Below are positions 48,526-53,024 of a stretch of 64,000 bases of DNA, piece after piece (the first letter of the stretch is position 1; each line of letters starts with the position of its first letter). The position numbers were made by a program, and so were the translations under genes. The stretch is from Trichuris trichiura (taxonomy: Eukaryota; Nematoda; Enoplea; Trichinellida; Trichuridae): assembly GCA_037903355.1 (NCBI GenBank), contig JBAJFE010000016.1:620001-684000 (forward strand). Direction: 5' to 3'. The notes beneath the pieces are model-generated. The model was given only the letters and a program-made list of their open reading frames with translations. It was not told the origin of the DNA and did no database searches.

Positions 48526-51500
48526 TCACTGTGGATAGGTGATAATTTCTCCGCTAACACTTTCCGCATCGTCTTGAGAGCCTTCCCGACTGGATCGCGA
48601 TGGTTGACCATTTTCTTCGCCGCTGTCATGATGACTTGGCGATCGAGACATGTCACGCTCAGGCGTTACGCTTCGTGAATGTTGGCTTTCTGATCCTGAG
48701 GAAGAATGACGCCCGTGTCTAAAAGTAGAACAATAAAACAATCAGACTAGAAACAGCAAAAAAACTGACGACATACTGTTCTTAATGAGCTACTTAAGAA
48801 TTCACAGTAACCTATATTAACAATATAACTTTTTTAGCGACTACTACCATTGATAATGCAACTAACTATTAGTATATATTATTCATTGTAAGTTATCAAT
48901 GACTGATTCGATTCAATAAATAAACTTTGATCATACGAAATTGCCTATCGGCAATAGCTTTACGAAATGATGAAAAAAGTATGGCCGCGCGGAATGGCCG
49001 GAAAAATTACTTTTCATTCTCTTTCGGACTGCCGTCTTTTACCACTTCAATAGCGTCGTCCGAATGGTCTTCCGAGCGTCTGGACCGCTTGCTGAAAAAT
49101 ATGCAAATAACGAATTTTTGCCTCAAGCCAACGTCGCGCTGCAGCTCGGCACGGAAAAGAAACATTTATTTAAAAACTGTCCTTCCGAGCTGCTTTAACA
49201 CTAAGCTGTCTCGCGTCCGCGCCGCGCTAAGGCAATTGAAATTGAGAGAAAAAATCTGCGGCTTACAGCAGACGAGACTTAATCCATAGAATTATTTTAA
49301 AATTGAATAAAAAATGCTTATCAAAGCTTTGATCTCGGTTAACGAAATTAAGAATTTACATATGCAAATTGAAAATTCTGTACTCGCGCGCAAGAAACTC
49401 GGCGAAACTTTTTTAAAGAAGAACACGGAACTGAATAAAAAGTGTATTCAACGTTTCGGTTTCGGATAACGAAATTAAGAATTTACACATGCAAATTGTA
49501 AATTCTGTACTCGCGGATAAGTAAGATAAGAAAATCCGTGAAAAAAATTTTTAGAAGAAAATTGAATGGAACAAAAAGTGCTTATCAATGTTTCAATCTC
49601 AGTTAGCGAAATTAGGAATTTACATATGCAAATTGTAAATTCTGTACTCGCGGATAAGATAAGAAATTCCGCGAAAAAAATTTTTAGAAGAAAATTGAAC
49701 TGAACAAAAAGTGCTTATCAACGCTTCAATCTCAGTTAGCGAAATTAAGAATTTGCATATGCAAATTGTAAATTCTGTACTCGCGGACAAGAAATTCCGC
49801 GAAAAATTTTGAGGAAACTTGAACTGCATAAAAAGTGCTTATCAACGCTTCGATCTCAGCTAACGAAATTAAAAATTAACACATGCAAATTTTAAATTCT
49901 GAACTTGCAGATAAGTAAGATAAGAAATTCCGTGAAAAAAATTTTCAGAAGAAAATTGAATGGAACAAAAAGTGCTTATTAACGTTTCAAGCTCGGCTGG
50001 CGAAATTAAGAATTTCCATACGCAAATTGTAAATTCTGTACTCGAGAACAAGAAATTCCGCGAAAAAAATTTAGAAGAAATTTGAAGATATAAAGGCGTA
50101 TGGTTTGAAATTTGCGGATAAGTAAGATAAGAAAATTGAACTGAATAAAAAGCGCTTATCAACGCTTCGGTCTCAGCTAACGAAATTAAGAATTTACATA
50201 TGCAAATTGTAAACTCTCTACTCGCGAATAAATAAGGTAAGAAATTCCGTGAAAAAAATTTTTACAGGAAAATTGAATTGAACAAAAAGTGTATATCAAC
50301 GATTCAACCTCAGTTAGCGAAATTAAAAATTTGCATATGCAAATTGTAAATTCTGTACTCGCGGACAAGAAATTCCGCGAAAAATTTTGAGGAAACTTGA
50401 ACTGAATAAAAAGTGCTTATCAACGCTTCGATCTCAGCTAACGAAATTAAAAATTTACATATGCAAATTTTAAATTCTCAACTTGCGGATAAGTAAGATA
50501 AGAGCGACTAACGCTAACGTGTCATTACAACAAAGATAAAGAAAGGCGCGTTTGATAATGAAGGCCGCGCGGGGAAAGCGAAAGCGACGCTTTTTCAAGG
50601 CGGAATCTAATAAGCTGGTCAACGTAAGCTGGATGCAAATTTTTGCCTTGTAAGGCGTCACCTACTGAACTAACATCAATCTACGCATAAAGAGAAAAGT
50701 TATACTAACTGTCGACGGGAACTGGACGAGTGACGCTTATGACGGTGGCTTCGATGGCGAGATCCGCTACGAGAACGCGTACGAGAGCGAGAACGTGAAC
50801 GAGAGCGGCGTCGCCTGAAATAATACTCCCATAAATGGAGACAACTCGCTGAGGCGACCGTACAACATACCTGTGACGACGTGGGGACGGCGAGCGGAAT
50901 CGATAGCTCGTTCGCGGCAAACCGTTGTACTTTGAACGCATTTCCCCCGGAGCTAAAAAGACGTCATCACACCGTCAATGCAAGAGAGGAAAAAGAGCTT
51001 ACTTTTTCTATCCCCTTTCGCAAATTCCACTTCCAAGTCGTTGCCGTGAAAGTTGACGCGATCCAGAGAATACAAAGCGTCTTCGGCGTCTCTTATATCT
51101 TCGAACGTGAAACGGCGCAGTTAAGGAAAGGAACTTTTTTTCTCAAAGGTACAGTGTCTTCAAGAGGCTGCAAACGAATTGTTAAATTAAAAAGTCAACG
51201 AGATTTTTTCCATTTTCCATTGGCAGAGCATTCATTGCTTTAAAGAGAAAAAACAAAAGCCCGAAAACCAGTTCACGACTGTTGCTTTCTACGATGAGAG
51301 CTGTGCAAGCATCTAAGGACGCACAAGTGCGGAATAACAATGTCTCATGCCGAAAGAGGCATCAAATACAACCTATGCGACTGTGAACCCATTGAGGCGT
51401 TGAGTAGCAATGACGAACTAGCGGAAGTCTAATGCATACGACTGCGCTTCACCAAAGACTTGCTTGCAGCAGCCTTTAATGCAGGCAGAAACCAACGACA

Positions 51501-53024
51501 GCTTCCCTAACTACCATTTCTATTTCAATACTATAGGTTCGCCTAACCGTACCTTCCTGAAATTAAATCTAAGGATGCCTCCATCTAAGGAGAATTTAAC
51601 CGCAAACCTTTTCCACCCATTAAAGCTTTATTTGGAAAATTTAATATACTTTTACGAATGTGAGTTAAAGCCCCTTTAAAAGATGTCGCATTTTAACATA
51701 ACTTGAAAATCTTAGAGGAAACGGTCGAAATGTGTTAATGTTGACACAAGACAACAGACAATAACAAGCTGTTCGTCACAGATGACGTAAAAGCATATGC
51801 GCTGCCTACAATGGCTTGAATCGATGGCTCACCACGTGACTTAGTAATTAACATAGCTAAATCGTGGAAGGAATTAAGTGAGCTATGAGTTTATCTGCCA
51901 AAAATTTAACCAAGCATGAAATAAAGAAAAGAAAAAAGAAAAGGACTAACTGAACTTCGGTCATTTTGCGTAATTGTCAATTGGCTAGCCTTAGCGAATT
52001 TGAAAAATACCGAAGCTAGCCGGGAATTACGCTGCAGTTTTTACGGTACCGGCTAAAATCCGAAGTCCACTTACTGACTTTATCTTTCTCTTGCACCTGT
52101 ACGCATACACACACACACTTGTCTTTGAGCTCAACTTGCCTTGCACCACCACTTTGTCTTTTCCGTGCCCCGGATGAACGGAAGGACGAGCGAAGGAAGA
52201 CACTCAAATATTGAAATGGGTGCTGCTTAACTATACGCGATTCGACTCGACTCATTGGTTGGTGGATGGCGCTCTGAGCAAGGACCAGCTTCTTGCGTGT
52301 GTACGGTGCTTGAGGAAGCGACCTTTCGATCTTGTTAAAGGTCTCTTGCAATGGGAAGAAGCAACAGCAATCTTTCCTTCATCTTTCTTGCCTTTAGTAC
52401 TTGTATTTAACGTCTCTTGTACTCTGGAACTCAAAAACATAAATTGAAACAGGCGCAAGACAATAAACGGCAAAACAAAAGGCTGCTAATGCGCAAAAGA
52501 GGGAAACTGTTGCAAGTGCTTTTGTAAAAGGTCAAAAATTGCCTTAAACCTGTCATTACCTAGTAAGGTGCAAGATCGATTAGGCAGAAAAGGCTATTGA
52601 AAAAATGCCCCCGGCGCCCCTTAGAGAGAACAAAGACAGCTCGCGTATAGGGGAAAAATACGAGCCGAATGAAAGCCGACTGCCAAAGGAAAATGAAAAA
52701 AATCTTTTTGACTACATGAGAAAGCTCTCAAGCAGGCGGTCGAGCTGCTCAAAGCTTAACCCTATAGCGTAAAATGCCTAAACGGCGTCTCAGAAGGATA
52801 TTCAATATAGGCAAAACCACGCGGCCGACGAGTGTAGTAGTCAAGCGGAATATAAACGTCCCGGACGTGACCATACTTGCTGAACATTCCTCTCAGCTCT
52901 TCTTCCCTGAAATTACCAATGTTTTTTCCACTTTACAAGCAAAGCGACAAGGCGTGACTAACCGGGTTTGCATGGGCAAATTTCTGATGTACAACGACGT
53001 ATTTGGAATACCATACCGCGACAT
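48526..53024 (-). CDS. SRSF10: SRSF10-like SR splicing factor (RRM + RS domain)
   Basis: RNA-binding splicing regulator of the nucleus. Exons: 53024-52963, 52906-52802, 51106-51003, 50952-50871, 50814-50710, 49091-49011 and 48718-48526 (TGA). All are frame-consistent and give 243 aa. The start [15 protein letters not shown] aligns with SRSF10 (MSRYLRPPNTSLFVRN). RNP-2 is LYIRNL and RNP-1 is [21 protein letters not shown] and GDRKTPGEM are also SRSF10-like. An RS domain with [17 protein letters not shown] follows, then a more acidic, Ser-rich C-terminus. Intron 2 is a U12-type AT-AC intron. Exon 49091-49011 is 81 nt and symmetric, so skipping it would keep frame. Intron 5 contains a nine-copy tandem array. 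SRSF12 is the closest alternative by family. The identity is strong; inclusion of the 81-nt exon is inferred. Confidence 0.93.
49305..50510. repeat. Intronic tandem array, about nine copies of a 123-138 bp unit
   Basis: Units begin near 49308, 49437, 49575, 49706, 49829, 49967, 50146, 50284 and 50408, each with AAAAAGTGCTTATCAACG or a variant. Each unit carries ATATGCAAATTGTAAATTC, then CTCGCGGATAAG, then an A-rich tract ending in TTTTTAGAAG or a shorter variant. Two unit types, with and without TAAGTAAGATAAG, alternate irregularly. The array lies wholly in intron 5 of the SRSF10-like gene. The 50146-50284 region and the 179-bp spacing before it suggest a local rearrangement. Confidence 0.9.
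51107..52801 (-). other. U12-type AT-AC intron of the SRSF10-like gene
   Basis: No GT-AG pair can join exon 2 to exon 3 in frame. The exon edge is instead followed by ATATCCTT, the consensus U12 5' splice site. The intron ends in TTCCTTAAC, the U12 branch consensus, 13 nt before the terminal AC. Joining at these sites restores the conserved RRM sequence AYIEFEDIRD exactly. The 1695-nt length is far above the 48-63 nt typical here. This is direct sequence evidence; splicing itself has not been observed. Confidence 0.88.

Follow-up and report, generated by a model that had tools for sequence, protein, structure and literature searches.

Background

Three U12-type AT-AC introns are on record for the nematode Trichinella spiralis, one of them in a gene for a serine/arginine-rich (SR) splicing factor and the other two in E04D5.1a (its name given as NA in the table) and the SPC25 gene, according to the sections of PMC2846911 that were available to us. 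In the SR gene the exon ends in GA, the intron runs as ATATCCTTTC...TTTCCTTAACGGGTATGGTTTAC over 2,095 nucleotides (nt), the next exon begins with GTTCGAAGA, and the expressed sequence tag (EST) EX501652.1 is given for it (PMC2846911, in the same part). Here we describe an intron of this kind in a 64,000-nt stretch of Trichuris trichiura (assembly GCA_037903355.1, contig JBAJFE010000016.1, positions 620,001 to 684,000 of the forward strand; hereafter the window). It lies within the RNA recognition motif (RRM) of an SRSF10-like gene.

Two other systems are close to the present one. An AT-AC U12 intron of mammalian Srsf10 runs from exon 2 to exon 4 and its use yields the coding mRNA; splicing from a major site further downstream in exon 2 instead brings in a stop codon and exon 3, in which nt 17-60 form a GA-rich enhancer and which also has a polyadenylation site (PMC7244321, in the portion available). 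This agrees with the preliminary description of the present locus, which had mentioned a mammalian minor intron used in autoregulation. The nested U12/U2 introns of Drosophila prospero, as the available portion of PMC8329584 presents them, likewise include a U12-type AT-AC intron, but the gene is unrelated, and it has an inner U2 intron and a purine-rich element that regulates the choice between the two.

Judging from the sequence comparisons below, we consider it nearly certain that the AT-AC intron of T. trichiura is genuinely U12-dependent, that its gene is the nematode orthologue of vertebrate SRSF10, and that the intron shares common descent with that of Trichinella and very likely with that of vertebrates. 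Because the matching intron of the T. spiralis SR gene has been in print since 2010, a fact absent from the preliminary description, the intron itself is not new.

Structure of the gene and of the AT-AC intron

In the predicted spliced model, a protein of 243 amino acids can be read between 53024 and 48526 on the minus strand, in seven exons. Five of the introns are GT-AG and the second one is AT-AC. The predicted protein has the architecture of the SRSF10 (SRp38) family, with one RRM (residues 11-80) followed by an arginine/serine-rich (RS) tail. The features are as follows (a slash marks a splice point).

52963..53024, minus strand: coding exon 1 of the predicted spliced model, with the start codon ATG at 53024
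52907..52962, minus strand: intron 1 of the predicted spliced model, GT-AG, 56 nt
52802..52906, minus strand: coding exon 2, ending with ATTGA at 52802 within the RNP1 motif (RGFAYIE/F)
51107..52801, minus strand: intron 2, U12-type AT-AC, 1,695 nt, assigned from its sites, the frame and the junction test
52794..52801, minus strand: U12-type 5' splice site ATATCCTT, a sequence match
51120..51128, minus strand: U12-type branch site TTCCTTAAC, a sequence match; the U12 candidate of the genome has GUAAGGAA
51003..51106, minus strand: coding exon 3 of the predicted spliced model, with the end of the RRM
50952-50871, 50814-50710, 49091-49011 and 48718-48526, minus strand: coding exons 4-7, encoding the RS-rich tail, with GT-AG introns between them

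Intron 5 (50709-49092) consists mostly of tandem arrays with units of 124-133 bp, in 6.0 and 2.8 copies (49304-50503).

The AT-AC intron begins with ATATCCTTCT at 52801 and its last letters, TTTCAC, end at 51107, after which the exon opens with GTTCGAAG at 51106. Its 5' site matches the U12-type RTATCCTT, and a match to the U12-type branch consensus TTCCTTRAC is found near the 3' end, 13 nt from the exon; the coordinates, both sites and the position of the terminal AC had all been given exactly in the preliminary description. The intron has a single copy of each of the shorter patterns RTATCC and TCCTTRAY, at the expected end in either case. In 258 kilobases (kb), with both strands searched (the window and 20 other stretches of the genome), TTCCTTRAC followed by AC or AG after 6-15 nt was matched seven times, and only the match in the SRSF10-like intron has RTATCYT within 3 kb upstream, with the caveat that for four of the six others the stretch begins less than 3 kb from the match.

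The intron cuts the RNP1 motif in phase 2. We examined the alternative that the major spliceosome removes the intron by a nearby GT-AG pair and that the AT-AC match is coincidental, by combining donors in 52846-52607 with acceptors whose first exon base is in 51400-51031 (544 GT-AG or GC-AG pairs). Sixteen pairs give an unbroken frame free of stops, four of them with an RNP1-like octamer, which is in favour of this alternative; however, FEDIR is lost in all 16, and none of the 544 restores the conserved peptide across the junction. Apart from the AT-AC pair, the only junctions that restored that peptide were slips of this pair by one and two bases (TA-CG and AT-GT), in agreement with the earlier observation that an AT-AC junction rebuilds it and GT-AG junctions do not. 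Together with the minor spliceosomal RNA candidates in the genome and the EST-based AT-AC homologue in T. spiralis, this makes removal by the major spliceosome highly improbable.

A DNA search of the genome with the intron gave the intron itself as the sole match, and on this ground we rejected the idea that it is transposon DNA, noting that the search tool skips very common words. The Rfam search of the window gave no match at the gathering score.

The roles of U11, U6atac and U12 in minor splicing are well established. In the SRSF10-like transcript, U11 and afterwards U6atac would recognise ATATCCTT, and U12 would base-pair with TTCCTTAAC; removal of the 1.7-kb intron would then unite the two halves of RNP1. 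As the frame implies, no intact RRM could be made without removal of the intron, which splits RNP1, and a functional SRSF10-like protein would hence depend on the minor spliceosome. Reading through the AT site would meet a stop after 12 further codons, still within the RRM.

Minor spliceosome components in the genome

The preliminary description had named the presence of U11, U12, U4atac and U6atac small nuclear RNAs (snRNAs) in the genome as a check on its reading. We searched the assembly (72,691,324 bases in 62 contigs) and found candidates for all four. U12, U11 and U6atac gave a single match each, at 73.5, 72.2 and 45.7 bits, all three over their cut-offs. The U12 candidate retains GAGUAAGGAA, which is complementary to the branch site. 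The first letters of the U11 candidate are AGAAAGGGC. A candidate for the ubiquitin-like domain of SNRNP25 (U11/U12-25K) was also matched, at 25.8 bits (cut-off 22.8), and by eye, in comparison with the human sequence, the frames adjoining this match seem to extend the protein. Together with the splice sites, the snRNA candidates indicate a minor spliceosome that can recognise the AT-AC intron of the SRSF10-like gene.

The genome contains 26 matches to the N-terminal domain of nematode cuticle collagens, by which it is recognised as that of a nematode, and none were found in 14 control genomes, a weak control in that those named are prokaryotes. We take this domain to be restricted to nematodes. 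That minor splicing was kept is in line with a nematode which, like Trichinella, branched off early.

Counterparts of the Trichinella introns

The SRSF10-like intron and that of the T. spiralis SR gene share the start ATATCCTT, the branch site TTCCTTAAC and the AC end, and they interrupt the same codon in the same phase before an exon that begins with GTTCGAAGA. Both are long (1,695 nt here and 2,095 nt in T. spiralis), and they differ at the +9 base, which is T in T. spiralis and C here. The EST indicates that the T. spiralis homologue is spliced at AT-AC. The identity of the present intron as U12-type AT-AC is thus supported by its sites, by the snRNA and SNRNP25 candidates and by this homologue. 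Of the earlier suggestion that the intron is ancient and functionally retained, the part on age stands as far as nematodes are concerned.

The other two T. spiralis introns have counterparts as well, so that three of three are matched in this genome. E04D5.1a, which we take to be eIF2A, has its counterpart on L044, with an AT-AC intron of 85 nt that ends before TGA as in T. spiralis. The SPC25 counterpart on L041 has an AT-AC intron of 72 nt if it is ended before GTA as in T. spiralis, and an end at 66 nt is also in frame. Both introns have ATATCCTTTC, TTCCTTAAC, AC and an unbroken frame. The matches of these two rest on the flanking bases, the published table giving no protein position for them.

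Relationship to SRSF10

The RRM of the window gene is identical to that of human SRSF10 (sequence taken as known) at 49 of 81 positions, to SRSF2 at 39 of 81 and to SRSF3 at 30 of 76. An SRSF2-like gene (L009) is present separately and is identical to human SRSF2 at 47 of 74 positions; there is also an SRSF1-like gene (L007). The RRM of the window gene is accordingly nearest to SRSF10 and not to SRSF1, SRSF2 or SRSF3, which upholds the assignment to an SRSF10-like gene in the preliminary description. A tree of six sequences sets the SRSF2 pair apart with support of 96/94. We further assume that the minor intron of human SRSF10 lies at the same codon and in the same phase as the nematode intron. 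Relatives of this RRM were confirmed neither in viral contigs (3 stretches matched by pattern) nor in contigs of prokaryote genomes (52 matched by pattern).

PDB entry 2cqc is titled 'Arginine/serine-rich splicing factor 10', a trap for annotation by name; this is presumably the old name of TRA2B and not of SRSF10.

In a survey of 27 species with C. elegans as the nematode, the SRSF10 clade was found in Euteleostomi only and its loss in insects was inferred, and another passage of the same paper describes the clade as conserved in bilaterians (PMC3173450, for the passages available). With the present gene, an SRSF10-like gene is placed in a nematode, against the restriction to Euteleostomi in that survey.

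Several observations weigh against a U12-dependent intron in an SRSF10 orthologue. The fork of the window gene in the six-sequence tree is weak (54/80), as are both forks outside the SRSF2 pair. The GT-AG pair 52783/51091 leaves the frame unbroken and retains an RNP1-like octamer, but loses FEDIR. When duplex energies with the genome's own U11, U12 and U6atac candidates were scanned along the intron, the lowest values did not fall at the true sites; such a scan takes no account of the bulged branch A, and we gave it up as a test. The SNRNP25 match spans 30 of 89 profile positions, contains an internal TAG and is barely over its cut-off, and the search of the genome for PDCD7 gave no match, a result made uninformative by controls that gave none either. 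Finally, the U4atac candidate (one match) reached 43.3 bits, under the curated cut-off of 53, but its deviations from the family consensus face those of the U6atac candidate, so that pairing is preserved. The duplex of the genome's own U4atac and U6atac was estimated at -34.8 kcal/mol and that of the two consensus sequences at -32.6, compared with -22.0 and -23.4 for the mixed pairs. Such compensatory changes argue that the low-scoring U4atac candidate is real.

The published U12-to-U2 shift

The T. spiralis SR gene has been set against C. elegans EEED8.7, and it was inferred from the comparison that the splice site moved by three residues and that the intron thereby changed from U12 to U2 (PMC2846911, in the part available to us). 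Both the orthology of EEED8.7 and the shift are stated there (section 10 and Table 1), and if EEED8.7 were the true orthologue the U12 intron would have turned into a U2 intron as published. We compared the ten-residue fragments of that table with the T. trichiura genes. Of the 10 residues of the C. elegans fragment FVRFYERRDA, L009 shares 8 and the window gene 4 (7 and 3, respectively, counted by hand, if position 9, for which we used the printed Asp, is read from the printed codon, Ala), and human SRSF2 shares 7. The T. spiralis fragment YIEFEELKDA, in which we followed the printed codons (Glu) over the residue line (Gln), matches the window gene at 7 of 10 and L009 at 3. Moreover, L009 has no intron at that place and reads through. 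In view of these matches and of the lack of an intron at that place in L009, the published comparison, of ten residues, probably sets SRSF10 against SRSF2, that is, two paralogues, and we regard a true orthology of EEED8.7 with a converted intron as quite unlikely.

A possible nested exon

The locus resembles mammalian Srsf10 in having a U12-type AT-AC intron in an SRSF10 gene, in a productive splicing that would require the minor spliceosome, and in a stop reached in exon 2 on reading beyond the minor site. In contrast, the nested exon with an enhancer and a polyadenylation site, demonstrated in mouse and human (PMC7244321, in the portion cited above), is conjectural here. The features that might form it are listed below.

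52755..52764, minus strand: hypothetical competing major 5' splice site, an in-frame TAG followed by G/GTTAAG
52371..52423, minus strand: hypothetical start of a nested exon, with an acceptor in GAGTTCCAG ending at 52424 and the GA-richest 24-mer at 52394-52371
51627..51632, minus strand: hypothetical polyadenylation signal AATAAA within the AT-AC intron, a sequence match

With these, the intron may carry in addition a nested exon of the major spliceosome, where SRSF10 would bind a GA-rich enhancer, promote the downstream GT-AG site and thereby lower its own productive mRNA. The layout of mouse Srsf10 is a precedent (PMC7244321, in the same portion). Past the AT site, the frame of 12 codons and the TAG lead to a GT that starts 41 nt after that site (52760); the acceptor has 12 pyrimidines in 17 positions; the GA-richest 24-mer of the intron (22 of 24 purines) falls at nt 30-53 of the putative exon, comparable with nt 17-60 for the mouse enhancer; and AATAAA follows at 51632. 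Both nematodes have a long intron at this position, and the T. trichiura one has no other match in the genome, but another intron of the gene, of 1,618 nt and mostly tandem repeats, is also long.

Among 194 background windows, each of 1,695 nt, the arrangement of acceptor and GA-rich stretch (22 of 24 purines) was found in 3, 6 and 8 at pyrimidine settings of 12, 11 and 10, respectively; in 2,000 shuffles of the intron it was found in a fraction of 0.0045. It occurs at two places in the window, one per strand, one of them in the SRSF10-like intron. However, the thresholds were picked after the sequence had been seen, and at the laxest setting (10 of 17 and 20 of 24) 47 of the 194 background windows match. 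This arrangement is the only part of the candidate autoregulatory exon that is even mildly unusual. The candidate donor pairs with U1 at -4.5, which equals one real donor of the gene and is better than two and worse than two others, but 15 GT sites of the intron, the candidate included, pair equally well or better, and the donor is therefore not evidence. A profile built from seven acceptors favours a rival acceptor ending at 51557 (10.1) over that at 52424 (3.9); a score of 10.0 is reached by 43 of 194 background windows, and the leave-one-out scores of the profile range from 2.7 to 10.0, which makes it a weak judge that cannot decide between the two. Among the papers listed by our literature searches, none deals with a nested exon in SRSF10 of a nematode, and none joins Trichuris, U12 and the minor spliceosome.

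Taken together, the nested exon seems possible, with the balance tilted against it. We put autoregulation of the nematode gene, the functional retention suggested in the preliminary description, forward as a hypothesis by analogy; both the feedback control and its tuning by the abundance of the minor spliceosome would be carried over from mammals.

Other genes in the window

A TANC1-like gene (1643-5401, minus strand) encodes ankyrin repeats and AAA lid and winged-helix domains of the TANC1 type, and an eIF4E-family gene (PF01652) lies at 60469-61320 on the minus strand. Upstream of the SRSF10-like gene, at 54887-57720 on the minus strand, open frames resemble by eye the remnants of retrotransposon gag and protease; three of the frames were scanned and gave no Pfam match.

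Implications

T. trichiura becomes a second nematode with counterparts of all three T. spiralis U12-type AT-AC introns and with candidates for all four minor snRNAs. We infer that the intron is spliced as such in this species, that its gene is orthologous to SRSF10, that it descends from the common ancestor of vertebrates and nematodes, and that minor-spliceosome activity may control the dosage of the protein. The published example of U12-to-U2 conversion is suggested to compare different genes. More speculatively, and with rather low confidence, SRSF10, its minor intron and a nested major exon activated by SRSF10 could be a feedback device that goes back to the bilaterian ancestor and persists in early-branching nematodes; nematodes such as C. 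elegans, which lost the minor spliceosome, would have lost the gene as a whole and not the intron alone, because productive SRSF10 splicing depended on that machinery. On this view the published shift would set paralogues side by side. Should the nested exon prove real, the coupling between SR-protein dosage and the minor spliceosome would be older than the split between nematodes and vertebrates.

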